In this document: piece by piece, positions 33,575 through 40,314 of the stretch
Layout of the letters: the number at the start of each line of letters is the position of its first letter
Numbering within the stretch: position 1 is the stretch's first letter
Assembly (NCBI GenBank): GCA_946546815.1
Contig: CAMNOL010000010.1
Span: 1-40,314 of the forward strand
Direction: 5' to 3'
DNA length: 40,314 bases
DNA from: an uncultured Oscillospiraceae bacterium
GTDB lineage: Bacteria > Bacillota > Clostridia > Oscillospirales > Oscillospiraceae
Position numbers and translations under genes: made by a program
Notes under the pieces: generated by a model
Seen by the model: only the letters and a program-made list of their open reading frames with translations
Told to the model about the DNA's origin: nothing
The model's database searches: none

Positions 33575-34780
33575 ATGGAACTGAATTTATACGCAAGCCT
33601 TTGCAGCCTGACTGCTTATCGCGGGCTGCTGGAGCGGAAGCCCATGAAAGCGCTGAAGCATCTGATGCGGAAGCTGGAATACAGCGAGAGCGACATCGAA
33701 AGCTATACCAGCGTGTTTTACGCACTGGTGGAGGAGGGCTATGACAGCCTGCCCAAGTATATCATGGATCACCTGCGCTATGATGAGTCCCCCTTTGCCA
33801 ACGCCGTAGCCAAGGGAACCGCCAGCGGGATGCTGGAAAATGCCGCAAAACACGACATTGACCTGCTGAATGTGGTGGTGAACCTGCCCTGCGCCGCGCT
33901 GAAGGGGGGACTGGTTGCGCTGAGTCCGCCCAGCTGGGGCCAGACCATTGAGGGCCTGCCGGAGTGGAATGTGGGCGGCCATATCAGCTACGAGGAGCTG
34001 AAGCGGTTTTATCAGGTCAACGGGTGCGGCTGGTTCGCCCGCTACAAGGCCTTTGTCTGGCAGAACGGCGAGCTGCATCCGGTGCCCCATCCGGATTTTC
34101 TGAACGAGGAAGAGATGTGGGGCTACCAGCGCCAGCGCAGCCAGGTCATCGAGAACACCCGGGCGCTGATGGCGGGAGCACAGGTGAACAATGTGCTGCT
34201 GTACGGCGCCAGCGGCACTGGCAAGAGCGCCACGGTGAAGGCGATGCTGAGCATGCCGGAGTTTGAAGGGCTGCGGCTGGTGGAGGTGCCCAAGGAGGAG
34301 CTGGGAGCGCTGCCCCGGCTGGTGCGGCTGCTGGCAGACCGCCCCCAGAAGTTTATTATCTTCATTGACGACCTGTCCTTTGACAAGGAGGACAAGACCT
34401 TTTCCAGCCTGAAAACCATTCTGGAGGGGGGACTGGAGCCCCGCCCGGCCAACGTGGCGGTGTACTGCACCTCCAACCGGCGGCATCTGGTGCGCCAGAA
34501 CTTCTCCGACCGGAACGGGGACGAGATCGACGCCAATGAGACCATTCAGGACAAGACCTCTCTTGCGGAGCGGTTCGGACTGCGGATTCTCTTTTCGGAG
34601 CTGAACAAGTTCCAGTTCATTCAGATGGCGGAGGAGCTGGCCGCGGCCAAGGGGCTGAACATCGACCGCGAAACCATTCAGGCGGAGGCGGTGAAGTGGG
34701 ACGTGCGGCATCCCAGCAGAAGTCCCAGAAGCGCCAATCAGTTTGTGGCCAGTATGATGGCCAGGTTCGGAAAAAACTGA
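33575..34780 (+). CDS. DUF815-family AAA ATPase
   Basis: Walker A LLYGASGTGKSATVKAML; FIIFIDDLSFDKEDKTFSSLKTILEGGLEPRPANVAVYCTSNRRHL. Confidence 0.92.
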   Translation: MELNLYASLCSLTAYRGLLERKPMKALKHLMRKLEYSESDIESYTSVFYALVEEGYDSLPKYIMDHLRYDESPFANAVAKGTASGMLENAAKHDIDLLNVVVNLPCAALKGGLVALSPPSWGQTIEGLPEWNVGGHISYEELKRFYQVNGCGWFARYKAFVWQNGELHPVPHPDFLNEEEMWGYQRQRSQVIENTRALMAGAQVNNVLLYGASGTGKSATVKAMLSMPEFEGLRLVEVPKEELGALPRLVRLLADRPQKFIIFIDDLSFDKEDKTFSSLKTILEGGLEPRPANVAVYCTSNRRHLVRQNFSDRNGDEIDANETIQDKTSLAERFGLRILFSELNKFQFIQMAEELAAAKGLNIDRETIQAEAVKWDVRHPSRSPRSANQFVASMMARFGKN

Positions 34781-34815
34781 TCCGAAGTTTCTATTATGTC
34801 AGGAAAAGCGAGTGC

Positions 34816-34843
34816 ATCGGAGACGGTGCCCTCGCTTTTTTGT
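34816..34843 (+). terminator. Intrinsic terminator of the DUF815 gene
   Basis: AAAAGCGAG … CTCGCTTTTTTG (coordinates approximate). Confidence 0.75.
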
Positions 34844-34892: not shown

Positions 34893-34921
34893 TTGTCAAA
34901 TTAGAACGGTTGTTCTATAAT
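34893..34921 (+). promoter_or_regulatory. Phage late-operon promoter (TTGTCA-17-TATAAT)
   Basis: -35 34893-34898, exactly 17-nt spacer, perfect -10 34916-34921. Confidence 0.85.
34904..34915. promoter_or_regulatory. LexA/SOS box GAACGGTTGTTC inside the promoter spacer
   Basis: Perfect GAAC-N4-GTTC, the Firmicutes LexA (DinR) half-site arrangement; extended AGAAC..GTTCT. Confidence 0.75.
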
Positions 34922-34951
34922 CGGGACAGCTCCAAAGGAAAGGAGGATTAG

Positions 34952-35443
34952 ATGAAGAAAGCGAAGGATTGGACAACGCCTGACAGGCTGGCACTGCTGG
35001 AAGGCTGGCGGAGGGAGGGACTGAGTGAAGAGCAGATTGCTGGGCGCATGGGCATCAGTGCCGGGACGCTGCGGAGCTGGCTGAAAAAGTCCCCGGAGCT
35101 GGGGCTGGCGCTGGAAACGGACGGTGAAGTCACGGACTACCAGGTGGAGAGCGCGCTGCTGAAAAAGGCACTGGGCTATGAGAGCACCGAGCGAAAGGTG
35201 GAAATCAACCCCAAGGGAGAGCGCAAGGAGGTGGAGACCACCAAGCAGGTGGGACCGGACATGAGCGCCATCTCCCTGTGGCTGAAAAAGCGCAGGCCGG
35301 AAAAGTGGGGTGACGCAGTCGCGGCGGGCCGACAGCCGGAGAACAACCTGTTCGAACAACTGGAAGGGGAGTTGGACCGCGATGCGATACCAGAGCTTCA
35401 GCCTGAGGCAGAAAACCGCGCTGACCTGGTGGAACAGGAGTGA
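34952..35443 (+). CDS. terS: Phage terminase small subunit
   Basis: HTH (LSEEQIAGRMGISAGTLRSWLKKSPELGLAL), ALLKKALGY…ISLWLKKRRPEKW; SD AAAGGAGG. Confidence 0.88.
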   Translation: MKKAKDWTTPDRLALLEGWRREGLSEEQIAGRMGISAGTLRSWLKKSPELGLALETDGEVTDYQVESALLKKALGYESTERKVEINPKGERKEVETTKQVGPDMSAISLWLKKRRPEKWGDAVAAGRQPENNLFEQLEGELDRDAIPELQPEAENRADLVEQE

Positions 35444-36638
35444 GCTGGCCGGTTATGACGGCCTGATCTGTGACGGCAGCGTGCGCAGCGGCAAGACCCT
35501 TTCCATGTCGGTGGGGTTTCTGCTGTGGAGCATGACCCGGTTTGACGGGGAGCAGTTTGCCATCTGCGGCAAGACCATTGAGGCGCTGCGGAGAAATGTG
35601 ACGGATTTGCTGCCCAAGTGGCTGGAGGGCATTTACACCTTTCAGGAGCGGCGCAGTGAGAACCGGATCACGGTGACCGGAAACGGACGGCAGAACACCT
35701 ATTACCTCTTCGGAGGCAAGGACGAGAGCAGTTACACCCTGATTCAGGGCATGACGCTGGCGGGGGTGCTGCTGGACGAGGCGGCGCTGATGCCCCGTTC
35801 CTTTGTGGAACAGGCGTTGGCACGGTGCAGCGTAGAGGGGTCCAAGTTCTGGTTCAACTGTAATCCGGCGGGACCGGACCACTGGTTTTACACGGAGTGG
35901 GTGAAGCGGTGCGGAGAAAAACACCTGCTGCATCTGCACTTCACCATGGAGGACAACCCCAGCCTCAGCCGTCAGGTGCGGGAGCGCTATGAACGGATGT
36001 ACAGCGGGGTGTTTTACGACCGGTATGTCCGGGGACTGTGGGTTTCCGCAGACGGACTGGTGTACGACGGATTTGACCCGGCCCGGCACGTTTCGGACCA
36101 GCTGCCGGAGACAGAGGGGCGATGCTATGTCAGCGTGGACTACGGCACCAGAAACCCCACGGTGTTCCTGCTTTGGCAGAGAGAAAAATCCGGGGAACGG
36201 TGGATCTGCCGGAAGGAGTACTGCTGGGACGGGCGGAAACGCCGGCGCCAGAAGACCGACGGAGAGTATGCAGAGGACCTGCAGCTTTTTTTAACCGGTT
36301 ACAATCTCCAAACGGTGATAGTTGACCCATCCGCAGCCAGTTTTATCACAGAACTGAGAAAAAACGGGCTGCCGGTACAGGCGGCGGACAACCGGGTGCT
36401 GGACGGAATCCGCAGCGTCAGCGGACTGCTCCGGGAGGGAAAGCTGCTGTTCAGCCGGGAGTGTACCCAGACCATTCAGGAATTTCGCTCCTATGTCTGG
36501 GACGAGGACGCGGCGGCGGCAGGAGTGGACCGGCCGGTGAAGGAGCACGACCACTGTATGGACGCGGTGCGGTATTTTGTCAGCACGGTGCTGATGCGGG
36601 CGCAGGCCCGGGTCAGAAGGAGGCCGGAGCGGCTGTAA
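35382..36638 (+). CDS. terL: Phage terminase large subunit
   Basis: DGSVRSGKTLSMS Walker A; LAGVLLDEAALMP Walker B; FNCNPAGPDHWFYTEW; C-terminal nuclease VSVDYGTRNPTVF. Confidence 0.95.
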   Translation: MRYQSFSLRQKTALTWWNRSELAGYDGLICDGSVRSGKTLSMSVGFLLWSMTRFDGEQFAICGKTIEALRRNVTDLLPKWLEGIYTFQERRSENRITVTGNGRQNTYYLFGGKDESSYTLIQGMTLAGVLLDEAALMPRSFVEQALARCSVEGSKFWFNCNPAGPDHWFYTEWVKRCGEKHLLHLHFTMEDNPSLSRQVRERYERMYSGVFYDRYVRGLWVSADGLVYDGFDPARHVSDQLPETEGRCYVSVDYGTRNPTVFLLWQREKSGERWICRKEYCWDGRKRRRQKTDGEYAEDLQLFLTGYNLQTVIVDPSAASFITELRKNGLPVQAADNRVLDGIRSVSGLLREGKLLFSRECTQTIQEFRSYVWDEDAAAAGVDRPVKEHDHCMDAVRYFVSTVLMRAQARVRRRPERL

Positions 36639-36661: not shown

Positions 36662-38056
36662 TTGATCTGGTATTTGGACCGGGAAGAGGTGCCGGACGTG
36701 GAGGACCTGCCTCCGGAGGTGCTGCGGTATCTGGTGGAGCGGGCCGAGCGGGCCGCCGGACGGTATCAGCGGCTGGAGGAGTACTACCGGGGCGAGCACC
36801 CCAACCTGAAAGGCAGGAAGAATCCCGACGAGGTACAGGTGGCGGTGAATTACGCCAAATACGTGGTGGACACAGGGTTGGGCTACTATCTGGGCGAGCC
36901 GGTGAAGTACGACGCCAACCAGGTGAGCCGGAACAGGCATGGGGCAGAGGGAAAGAAAGTCGTTGACCTGTGCCCGGTGCTGGAGTGCTACGATGCACAG
37001 CACATCAGTGAGGTGGATCAGGAGATCGGACGGGAAATGGGCACCTTTGGTGACTGCCTGGAGTTGTGTTACGCCTCCAGCGGGGAGAAGCCCAGGCCCA
37101 GAAGCGCCTGCATCGACCCCCGGTGCGGCATTCTGGTGTGCGATTCCACGGTGGAGCACAACAAGCTCTTTGCGCTGGTGTGGGACCGGCGGGAAAGCGT
37201 CACCGGTGAGCGGTACTATGCGGTGACGGTGTACACGGACCGGACGGTGAAGCACTATCGGAGCGCGGACCTGAAAACAGCGGTGTTTTCCCAGTGGGGC
37301 GAGACCGAGGAGCACTTTTTCGGTGAGGTGCCGGTGATCGCCTACGAGAACAACGGAGAACGGCAGGGGGACTTTGAGCAGATCATCAGCCTCATCGACG
37401 CCTATGACGGGCTGATGAGCGACCGCCTGACGGACAAAAAGAAGTTTGTGGATGCGCTGCTGGTGTTCTTCGGCATGACGCTGCGGGAGGGCGACGAAGG
37501 ACGGCTGGCCCGGGAGAAATTCCTGGACGGCGCGCCGCTGGACGCCCGGGCGGAGTACATCCAGAAAACCTTTGACGAGGCCGGGGTACAGGTGCTGGCG
37601 GATGCGCTGGTGCGGGAGATGCACAAGATGACCATGACGGTGGACATGAGCGACGAGAAGTTCGCCGGAAACAGCTCCGGACAGGCGCTGAAGCTGAAGC
37701 TGCTGACCATGAACCTGATGGTGAAAAACAAGATGCGCCGGATGGAGAAGGGGCTGAAGGAGCGGCTGAAGCTGTACAACCGGTGGCTGTACGTCATGGG
37801 GGAGATGGACCCGGTGGAGGGCAACGAGGTGGACGTGGTGTTCACGGTGAATATGCCCATCGACGAGGGCGGCGTCATCGACCTGGTGACCCGGCTGCAG
37901 GGGATTGTGGACGACCAGACGCTGCTGAGCCAGCTGTGGTTTATCCGGGACCCGGCGGAGGCGCTGAAAAACATCCGGGAACAGAAAACAAAGGAGGGAG
38001 AAGCAGTCAATGGAGGAGCAGGAGATTATGGAGCAGGAACTGCAGGCAGAGCCTGA
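36662..38056 (+). CDS. Phage portal protein (SPP1 gp6-like), TTG start
   Basis: VNYAKYVVDTGLGYYLGEPVKY; DAYDGLMSDRLTDKKKFVDALLVFFG; NSSGQALKLKLLTMNLMVKNKMRRMEKGLKE. Confidence 0.92.
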   Translation: MIWYLDREEVPDVEDLPPEVLRYLVERAERAAGRYQRLEEYYRGEHPNLKGRKNPDEVQVAVNYAKYVVDTGLGYYLGEPVKYDANQVSRNRHGAEGKKVVDLCPVLECYDAQHISEVDQEIGREMGTFGDCLELCYASSGEKPRPRSACIDPRCGILVCDSTVEHNKLFALVWDRRESVTGERYYAVTVYTDRTVKHYRSADLKTAVFSQWGETEEHFFGEVPVIAYENNGERQGDFEQIISLIDAYDGLMSDRLTDKKKFVDALLVFFGMTLREGDEGRLAREKFLDGAPLDARAEYIQKTFDEAGVQVLADALVREMHKMTMTVDMSDEKFAGNSSGQALKLKLLTMNLMVKNKMRRMEKGLKERLKLYNRWLYVMGEMDPVEGNEVDVVFTVNMPIDEGGVIDLVTRLQGIVDDQTLLSQLWFIRDPAEALKNIREQKTKEGEAVNGGAGDYGAGTAGRA

Positions 38057-38429
38057 GCAGGAGCGGCCAATGCTGATGCGGGAGGCACTGGAGGCGGAAC
38101 GCCGGGCGCTGGAAGCGGAAAAGGCTGCCTTTGCCCGGCAGAAGCTGGAGCGGCTGGTGGCTGCGGAACTGGCTGAGCGGGGACTCAGCGAGGAATTTGC
38201 GGACTTTCTCACCGGCGAGGACGAGGCGGAGAGCCTGGACCGGGTGGAACGGTTTGAGGCGCTGTTCCAGCAGAGCCTGAAGGCGGAGATCGCCCGGCGG
38301 ATGCGGGGAAAGGGCGCGCCCAGGGAGCCGGCAAAGCCCAAAGGCATCAGCAGGGAGAGCCTGAGAAGCATGAGTGCAAAGGAGATCAACGCCCGGTGGG
38401 AGGAGATCGCCGGCGCACTGAAAAAGTGA
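38010..38429 (+). CDS. Phage scaffolding protein (DUF4355-like)
   Basis: Glu-rich coiled coil, position between portal and capsid, C-terminal SAKEINARWEEIAGALKK. Confidence 0.82.
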   Translation: MEEQEIMEQELQAEPEQERPMLMREALEAERRALEAEKAAFARQKLERLVAAELAERGLSEEFADFLTGEDEAESLDRVERFEALFQQSLKAEIARRMRGKGAPREPAKPKGISRESLRSMSAKEINARWEEIAGALKK

Positions 38430-38482: not shown

Positions 38483-39325
38483 ATGGCATTTGACAACTTT
38501 ATTCCCGAGGTGTGGTCCGCACGGCTGCTGGAGCACCTGGACAACATCCACGTTTACGCCGGCCTGATGAACCGGGACTATGAGGGCGACATCAAGGCCT
38601 TCGGCGACACCGTTCATATCAACCAGCTGGGCAGCATCACCATCCGGGACTACGACGGCACCGAAATCGAGGACCCCGAGGAGCTGGACGGCGAGCAGCA
38701 GAATCTGGTCATCGACAAGGCCAAGTACTTCAACTTCCAGGTGAAGGACATCAACAACGCCCAGTCCAACCCCAAGCTCATCGACAGCGCCATGCAGCGG
38801 GCCAGCTACGGCATCAACGATGAGATCGACCGCTATCTGGCCCAGCTGCTGGTCAGCGGCTGCAAGGCGGAGAATGTGCTCTACGGCGACAGCAACGCGG
38901 TGAAGCCCACCGCCGCCAACGCCTATGACTATCTGGTGGACCTGGGCACGGTGCTCAGCGAAAACAACGTGCCCATGCTGGGCCGCTGGGCGGTGATTCC
39001 CCCCTGGTACCACGCGCTGCTGCTGAAGGACGAGCGTTTTGTGGGCAACGGCACCGGCTACAACCAGGCGGTGCTCCAGGGCGGCGTGGTTGGTGAGGCC
39101 GCCGGCTTCCAGATCCACCTGAGCAACAACGTGCCCAACACCAACGGCCAGCACTACAAGGTACTGGCAGGCACCAACGCCGGCGGCGCTTTCGCTGAGC
39201 AGCTGGTGGAGCTGGAGGCTTACCGTCTGGAGAAGAACTTCTCTGATGCGGTGAAGGGCCTGCACGTCTACGGCGCCAAGGTGGTGCAGCCCGGCGCGCT
39301 GGCCGTGATGACGGTGGACAAGTAA
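38483..39325 (+). CDS. Phage major capsid protein (P22 coat-like family)
   Basis: MAFDNFIPEVWSARLLEHLDNIHVYAGLMNRDYEGDIKAFGDTVHINQLGSITIRDY; gene order. Confidence 0.92.
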   Translation: MAFDNFIPEVWSARLLEHLDNIHVYAGLMNRDYEGDIKAFGDTVHINQLGSITIRDYDGTEIEDPEELDGEQQNLVIDKAKYFNFQVKDINNAQSNPKLIDSAMQRASYGINDEIDRYLAQLLVSGCKAENVLYGDSNAVKPTAANAYDYLVDLGTVLSENNVPMLGRWAVIPPWYHALLLKDERFVGNGTGYNQAVLQGGVVGEAAGFQIHLSNNVPNTNGQHYKVLAGTNAGGAFAEQLVELEAYRLEKNFSDAVKGLHVYGAKVVQPGALAVMTVDK

Positions 39326-39456: not shown

Positions 39457-39810
39457 ATGACAGACGAGGTAATGGAGGCCCTGCAGGAGCGGCTGATGCG
39501 GAAGCTGGGGCTGGAGGAGCCGGATGAGGATGTGCTGGCGCTGCTGGAGGATGAGCTGCTGGATGCCGAGGCGGAAATCCTGCTGGAGCTGAACCTGGAC
39601 GAGCTGGAAGAGCGGATGCAGGGCAAGGTGGTGGAGCTGGCAGCGGTGTACTTCCGCTACGACCTGGCCCAGGAGGACGGCGTGCAGGTCAGAAGCTATG
39701 CCGAGGGCCAGATCAGTGAGAGCGAGACCCGATTCACCCCGGAGGAGTACCGGCGGGATGTCCGGGAGATTCTGGACAGCCTGAACCGCTACCGGAGGGT
39801 CTCATGCTGA
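39457..39810 (+). CDS. Phage head-tail connector (gp6/DNA packaging-like)
   Basis: Position after capsid; acidic helical protein of ~117 aa; SD GGGAGG. Confidence 0.65.
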   Translation: MTDEVMEALQERLMRKLGLEEPDEDVLALLEDELLDAEAEILLELNLDELEERMQGKVVELAAVYFRYDLAQEDGVQVRSYAEGQISESETRFTPEEYRRDVREILDSLNRYRRVSC

Positions 39811-40178
39811 ACGGGAAAACCCCTGGGGCGTGGCGAAAGGGCTATGCGCTCCACCGTCGGAGGTGGAAAACTGACCGGTACGGCGAGGCTGTAAGTGTGT
39901 ACGACATGGACCATCCGGACGCAGTGGTGGAGGACGGCAGCCCGGACGCGGTGTGCTGGCAGGATCTGGGCGGAATCCGGGACAGCGGAAGGCTGACCAG
40001 CGGAGCGGAGCTGTCGGAGCAGGGAGAGCGGTATCGGGAGATTCTGCAGGGCGCCCTGTTCAGCGAACTGGAGCTGTCGGTGTACGACCGGGTGGTGGTG
40101 AACGGCGGGGTATATGAGCTGCGGAAGATTCAGCAGTGGCCCGGACACCGGATGCTGTTCCTGCAGCGGCTGTGGTGA
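39804..40178 (+). CDS. Phage head closure/minor capsid-like protein
   Basis: ~125 aa, position after connector, beta-rich C-terminus (YDRVVVNGGVYELRKIQQWPGHRMLFLQRLW). Confidence 0.6.
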   Translation: MLNGKTPGAWRKGYALHRRRWKTDRYGEAVSVYDMDHPDAVVEDGSPDAVCWQDLGGIRDSGRLTSGAELSEQGERYREILQGALFSELELSVYDRVVVNGGVYELRKIQQWPGHRMLFLQRLW

Positions 40179-40192
40179 CAGGAGGTGGACCG

Positions 40193-40314
40193 ATGACAGA
40201 GGCAGAGTGGACGCTGGTGGACGCCCGTCAGCAGGTGAAGGCTGCGCTGGAGGGGATGCAGAGCGAGATCGCCTTTGATGTGCGGCAGAGCTGGCCCAGG
40301 GAGCAGACGGACCG
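40193..40314 (+). CDS. Truncated phage gene (probable tail-completion/HK97 gp10-like), continues beyond window
   Basis: MTEAEWTLVDARQQVKAALEGMQSEIAFDVRQSWPREQTD… open to window edge; SD GGAGG. Confidence 0.5.
   Translation, partial: MTEAEWTLVDARQQVKAALEGMQSEIAFDVRQSWPREQTD

Follow-up and report, generated by a model that had tools for sequence, protein, structure and literature searches.

A LexA-type operator in the promoter of a genus-wide, probably host-domesticated particle operon of gut Oscillospiraceae

Background

To whom do the phage-type packaging and capsid genes at the right end of this contig belong, and what controls them? The window (the whole stretch of DNA analysed, 40,314 nucleotides) is the entire contig C10 of a 145-contig genome, and it ends inside a cluster of structural genes whose promoter appears to carry an operator for the host SOS repressor, LexA. 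GTA-like packaging has been found in Ruminococcaceae and Oscillospiraceae, and FpGTA has been described in Faecalibacterium (2026, PMC12946183). The same work, in whose text LexA does not figure, also searched an Onthomonas (Oscillospiraceae) genome, but Faecalibacterium alone yielded a strong candidate operon (PMC12946183).

Results

Genes of the cluster in the window

The cluster begins downstream of a host gene for an AAA ATPase and runs off the contig within a tail gene:

33575-34780, + strand: AAA ATPase with DUF815, the host gene directly upstream (PF05673, E 7e-84)
34952-35443, + strand: terS, small terminase subunit with an N-terminal HTH (phrog_309, E 5e-36; in 32/32 genus genomes)
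35382-36638, + strand: terL, large terminase subunit (phrog_2, E 1e-57; PF03237)
36662-38056, + strand: portal protein, SPP1 gp6-like (PF05133, E 7e-85; start from a scripted gene call)
38010-38429, + strand: capsid scaffolding protein, DUF4355/Gp46 (PF14265, phrog_172)
38483-39325, + strand: major capsid protein of the P22-coat/Phage_capsid_4 type (phrog_267, E 7e-70)
39457-39810, + strand: head-tail adaptor (phrog_132)
39804-40178, + strand: second connector protein (homologous to its positional counterpart in related clusters; no family match)
40193-40314, + strand: tail terminator, truncated where the contig stops (phrog_78 for its homologue)

The terL product retains intact Walker A (CDGSVRSGKT), LLDE and nuclease motifs. 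G+C content is 61.6% in the cluster versus 57.2% in the host part of the window. The cluster resumes on contig C144 (L082) with the rest of the tail terminator, the tail tube and the tape measure. A second set of related tail genes, its tail terminator about 37% identical, is found in the same genome on contig C117 (L083, G000:C117) and probably belongs to an ordinary prophage.

An operator inside the terS promoter

An earlier note on this DNA had read a promoter TTGTCA-N17-TATAAT at 34893-34921 with a perfect GAAC-GGTT-GTTC in its spacer, and direct reading finds this exact, coordinates included. The elements around it are:

34806-34841, + strand: putative intrinsic-terminator-like hairpin with T-run, AAGCGAGTGCATCGGAGACGGTGCCCTCGCTTTTTT, between the DUF815 gene and the cluster (read from sequence)
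34893-34898, + strand: -35 hexamer TTGTCA (read from sequence)
34899-34915, + strand: spacer of 17 bp, its right part occupied by GAACGGTTGTTC
34902-34917, + strand: full dyad TAGAAC-N4-GTTCTA (from the sequence)
34904-34915, + strand: LexA-type box GAACGGTTGTTC (from the sequence; position kept across the genus)
34916-34921, + strand: -10 hexamer TATAAT, abutting the box (from the sequence; invariant in 17 aligned promoters)
34940-34946, + strand: ribosome-binding site AAGGAGG (from the sequence)

The -10 that the box abuts lies 30 bp upstream of the terS start (ATG at 34952). The window has no second GAACN4GTTC, a count that was dropped as evidence because it is at chance level: 0.57 copies are expected per window, and at least one copy occurs in 47 of 100 shuffles. 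It is the position of GAACGGTTGTTC and its conservation, not the count, that mark it as more than chance.

Conservation of the box across the genus and family

Searching with a terS profile recovers the cluster throughout the window's genus, in 32 of 32 genomes, a non-redundant count (G201 and G212, for example, both from L052, name one genome), and in 26/26 of the high-quality ones; of 401 genomes sampled across the family, only 43 give a match. A box with no more than one mismatch stands in the terS core promoter of 26 of the 32, with nine perfect copies and 17 carrying one mismatch to GAACN4GTTY (the one-mismatch form GTGC is common to seven species). One promoter (G231) has two mismatches, four genomes that keep the cluster have clearly lost the dyad (G208, G235, G209 and G232), and the box was not found in one contaminated genome. 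Because four members are box-less and the G231 box has two mismatches, LexA control cannot be essential everywhere. The four box-less promoters (L145, L146, L149, L153) retain an upstream TTGCATTT element, two of them with a GC-rich spacer in the dyad's place, and they are natural negative controls. Perfect boxes, here followed by TATTAT, also occur outside the genus, in two genomes of g14, which belongs to the same family; in these clusters (L157, L158) TerS is without the N-terminal HTH, and an Xre-like gene is oriented divergently from terS.

Conservation of the operator was measured column by column in the 17 terS promoters that align without gaps, counting changes by parsimony on the terL tree. 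(One subclade, where the automated finder misplaced the -10, was read by eye and left out of this test.) The eight half-site columns average 0.38 changes versus 2.8 in the surrounding non-hexamer columns, about 7-fold fewer; the corresponding means are 3.0 for the central N4, 3.3 upstream, 2.6 downstream, and zero for the -10. Permutation gives P = 6e-5, which is only a guide because alignment columns are not fully independent. The 32 genomes contain 37 copies of the composite pattern GAACN4GTNC+TATAAT, 17 of them in the terS promoter, and 0 copies of a reversed control pattern. The other occurrences include recN and phage-type genes. Used genus-wide to look for a boxed second (lysis) operon, the same pattern returned recN, phage regulators, a serine recombinase and a phage-type protein, and no lysis operon. 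A phage-type protein gene (MAERKSF...) seen in two genomes (L194, L218) has a LexA box and TATAAT promoter arranged as at terS.

The host LexA and its other sites

LexA (203 aa, L001:1501-2112) is intact in the window's genome, with LexA_DNA_bind (HTH) and Peptidase_S24 domains. Its own promoter carries GAACAAATGTTT, a box of the GAACN4GTTT form that is identical at lexA of the relative G205, and the promoter of recN, a classic LexA target, carries AAACGACAGTTC and GAACTGCTGTTC. In relatives (L217, L220) the box-TATAAT layout of terS is also found before recN. The operator of this genome is of the B. subtilis/Clostridium type (PMC4234289), and the site at terS matches the species' own consensus. 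The earlier note would have given up its reading if the host LexA consensus were different; the lexA and recN boxes prove to be of the matching type. With LexA intact, its own lexA and recN sites in place and the terS box conserved, the computational evidence favours the direct control by host LexA that the note had proposed for the packaging and capsid operon.

Could the dyad instead bind another repressor whose operator is similar, for instance an Xre or phage-type regulator? The divergent Xre-like gene in g14 would suit such a regulator, and further HTH/S24-like genes of the window's genome carry such boxes themselves, while no regulator gene lies beside the cluster in the window's genus and both the box-TATAAT layout before recN and the GAACN4GTTT box before lexA speak for LexA; we regard another repressor as improbable. 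One Xre-type regulator gene has GAACTCTTGTTC (L016:164-175) directly followed by TATTAT, a box-on-promoter layout like that of terS. Elsewhere in the window's genome, a gene for an 87-aa protein (L009:1188-1512; G000:C16:15704-16028) is preceded by three LexA-type boxes, GAACTTTTGTTT, GAACTTGTGTTT and GAACTGATGTTC. The protein has no Pfam match and a hydrophobic segment at its C-terminus; its gene is a candidate for a cell-division inhibitor of the SOS response or for some other strong SOS gene.

Cluster layout and host flanks in relatives

The mapped clusters are operons of 9-14 kb wedged between host genes. Relatives with long contigs have terS and terL first, then portal, scaffold, capsid and three connectors; tail tube, one or two small genes, tape measure and a phrog_1194 protein come next. 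In the 13-14 kb form tail/baseplate, holin and lysozyme genes follow; in the form of about 9.2 kb, to which many clusters belong, host genes come straight after the phrog_1194 protein, and baseplate, holin and lysin are absent from the locus. A holin search of the 11 short-operon genomes gave candidate lysis loci in seven, some of them possibly ordinary prophages. Wherever both flanks are assembled, host genes abut both ends (e.g. G205, G201, G202, G204, G235, G209, G211, G229, G219, G214), some of them named from protein sequence alone. Three species share the order guaA, cluster, then genes for an HTH/3H regulator, a CsoR-like protein and PTS components; the G205 cluster lies between rfbA and a VanW-domain gene. 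A search of 13 genomes found the DUF815 gene in 12, and in the relatives its orthologue has other downstream neighbours and no terS; the locus of the cassette therefore differs from subclade to subclade, its own promoter travelling along.

Several neighbours recur. A VanW-domain gene, several times with a DUF2461-type gene, repeatedly adjoins the cluster or a separate tail/holin locus (L223, L043, L066, L188; G135, G221, G205, G219), possibly marking the ancestral site before the operon split. A dprA-like gene, named from its sequence, adjoins the cluster in L148 and L153 (G229, G209); dprA belongs to the class of genes required for DNA uptake by GTA recipients, and its presence here may be a coincidence. 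A Tn916-like element (L054:1953-8050, L058:611-2325) with Xre and tyrosine integrase genes lies on the 3' side of guaA, beside the cluster's locus. The integrase in L054 was considered as part of the cluster and dropped, as it sits beyond guaA amid the Tn916-like genes.

Descent, selection and the prophage alternatives

Every structural protein of the cluster is phage-like, true prophages with related late genes occur in the same genus (L077, L084-L086), and the window's contig ends inside the cluster, so that an ordinary temperate prophage with a LexA-controlled late operon, its early genes elsewhere or lost in assembly, has to be considered. It is largely refuted, and we give it little chance. 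The mapped clusters of relatives (the window's own right end being off-contig) contain no integrase, repressor or replication genes, the gene content expected of a GTA, and have host genes at both ends where flanks are assembled. No LexA-type box is found at the related late genes of the ordinary prophages examined (L077, L084-L086). The cluster occurs in all genomes of the genus, and its sequence distances match those of a host gene: pairwise terL distances track those of DUF815 with a Mantel r of 0.96 (one host gene, 12 genomes). The cluster is not an ordinary prophage.

A dead prophage remnant whose LexA-like dyad is a coincidence would be compatible with the chance-level motif count in a single window, with the loci that have no lysis genes and with the truncated terL of G231. 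This explanation is refuted for the genus as a whole and seems to us barely credible, since 31 of 32 genomes have a full-length terL, with a dN/dS of 0.05-0.19 over 15 species pairs (purifying selection), the half-sites are conserved far above their flanks, and the 37 pattern occurrences face none for the control. The terL ATPase and nuclease motifs are kept in most genomes of the genus. Presence in 32/32 genomes, dN/dS and Mantel correlation together give the stable vertical inheritance under purifying selection that characterizes GTAs.

Discussion

Our preferred reading, to which we assign a probability of roughly 0.7, is that the right end of the window is the start of a host-domesticated, GTA-type particle operon, kept vertically throughout the genus and predicted to be controlled directly by the SOS repressor. 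The earlier note had put forward a domesticated, SOS-wired particle, and computation now lends this support in the host flanks, the missing integrase, repressor and replication genes where clusters are mapped, the presence in 32/32 genomes and the purifying selection. The arrangement suggests that the bacteria themselves, and not a phage, decide on particle production upon DNA damage. In the undamaged cell a LexA dimer on the box between -35 and -10 would, judging from its position, exclude RNA polymerase. DNA damage would lead through RecA filaments to LexA self-cleavage, upon which the near-consensus sigma-A promoter should fire and the terminase, portal, capsid and tail genes be expressed, with no phage activator required. 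The terminase would then fill heads with DNA, most likely that of the host chromosome, since the cluster lacks a replicating genome, and cell lysis would free particles for a presumed transfer of genes. The TerS HTH, kept in the window's genus, is compatible with sequence-specific packaging and to that extent counts against this reading.

The same operon might instead make headed, host-DNA-packing particles that kill related strains and do not deliver genes, as PBSX does; mitomycin-induced PBSX packs 13.4 kb host fragments and is a tailocin-like killer (PMC12946183). Clustered, host-borne structural and lysis genes fit a killer equally well, and killing and transfer are inseparable by sequence. 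Against it, PBSX occupies a larger locus under its own Xre repressor, whereas the operon mapped here takes up 9-14 kb and has no regulator gene; on balance we think a PBSX-like killer unlikely.

Whether the GTA-type particle operon founds a new GTA family, siphovirus-like, universal in a genus of gut Oscillospiraceae and with its structural operon directly in the LexA regulon, is a proposition on which we would bet evenly either way. If it is true, each damaged cell turns packager of chromosome fragments, and DNA-damaging drugs would therefore switch on gene exchange directly; a candidate cluster would also be supplied for the GTA-like packaging seen in Oscillospiraceae where no cluster had been identified (PMC12946183). 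With a LexA operator within its core promoter, the operon would have the simplest wiring found, a single step from DNA damage to particle genes. Where gut communities are dense and exposed to quinolones or other genotoxic drugs, it would tie damage to lysis and to gene exchange or killing. The conserved terS promoter can be assayed in vitro at once. In the open-access literature we found no GTA whose structural operon is reported to be controlled directly by LexA, itself weak evidence of absence.

Comparison with known systems

The closest capsid relatives among named phages, at 49-50% identity over full length, belong to Aeribacillus phage AP45 and deep-sea phage D6E, which differ in being complete phages of about 50 kb. 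A tailocin is headless, whereas the window's cluster has capsid, portal and terminase genes. PBSX of Bacillus subtilis, which kills rather than transfers, is alike in being Gram-positive, DNA-damage-induced, defective and a packager of host DNA (PMC12946183), the induction and packing being predicted for the window's cluster.

As for the operator, core SOS genes of the Clostridioides difficile LexA regulon have GAACN4GTTY-type sites (motif GAACNNNNGTTT/GTTC), in a paper that mentions no phage gene and in which the term "phage" is absent (PMC4234289). At promoter P1 of GIL01, a tectivirus of Bacillus thuringiensis, host LexA represses a phage promoter directly through a GAACN4GTTC-type box (PMC4551915). 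GIL01 differs in being a replicating phage whose early promoters are targets of LexA together with gp7 and whose late genes depend on promoter P3 and a phage activator (PMC6182141).

RcGTA and CcGTA of Alphaproteobacteria are likewise structural clusters of about 10-15 kb, vertically inherited and without self-replication, and they are host-regulated, as is predicted for the window's cluster. Their structural operons use dedicated host activators, with LexA at most indirect: RcGTA requires GafA, LexA apparently acting through CckA (PMC9638019), and CcGTA is controlled by RogA/GafYZ (PMC9632790). The window's structural operon, in contrast, itself bears a LexA-type operator.

FpGTA I/II of Faecalibacterium prausnitzii (CP030777:2536737-2546346 and 2672270-2677176; PMC12946183) shares with the window's cluster an origin in gut Oscillospirales, a compact terS-terL-portal-scaffold-capsid operon without replication genes, and near-universal presence in its genus. 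It is set apart by its description as podovirus-like, with a TerS that has no DNA-binding domain; the window's cluster, which falls outside the FpGTA type, has a tail tube and tape measure, a TerS HTH (absent in g14) and the LexA box. Baseplate, fibre and lysis genes of FpGTA may occupy a second locus, and some short-form genomes of the present genus, with candidate holin/lysin loci elsewhere, may resemble this two-operon arrangement.
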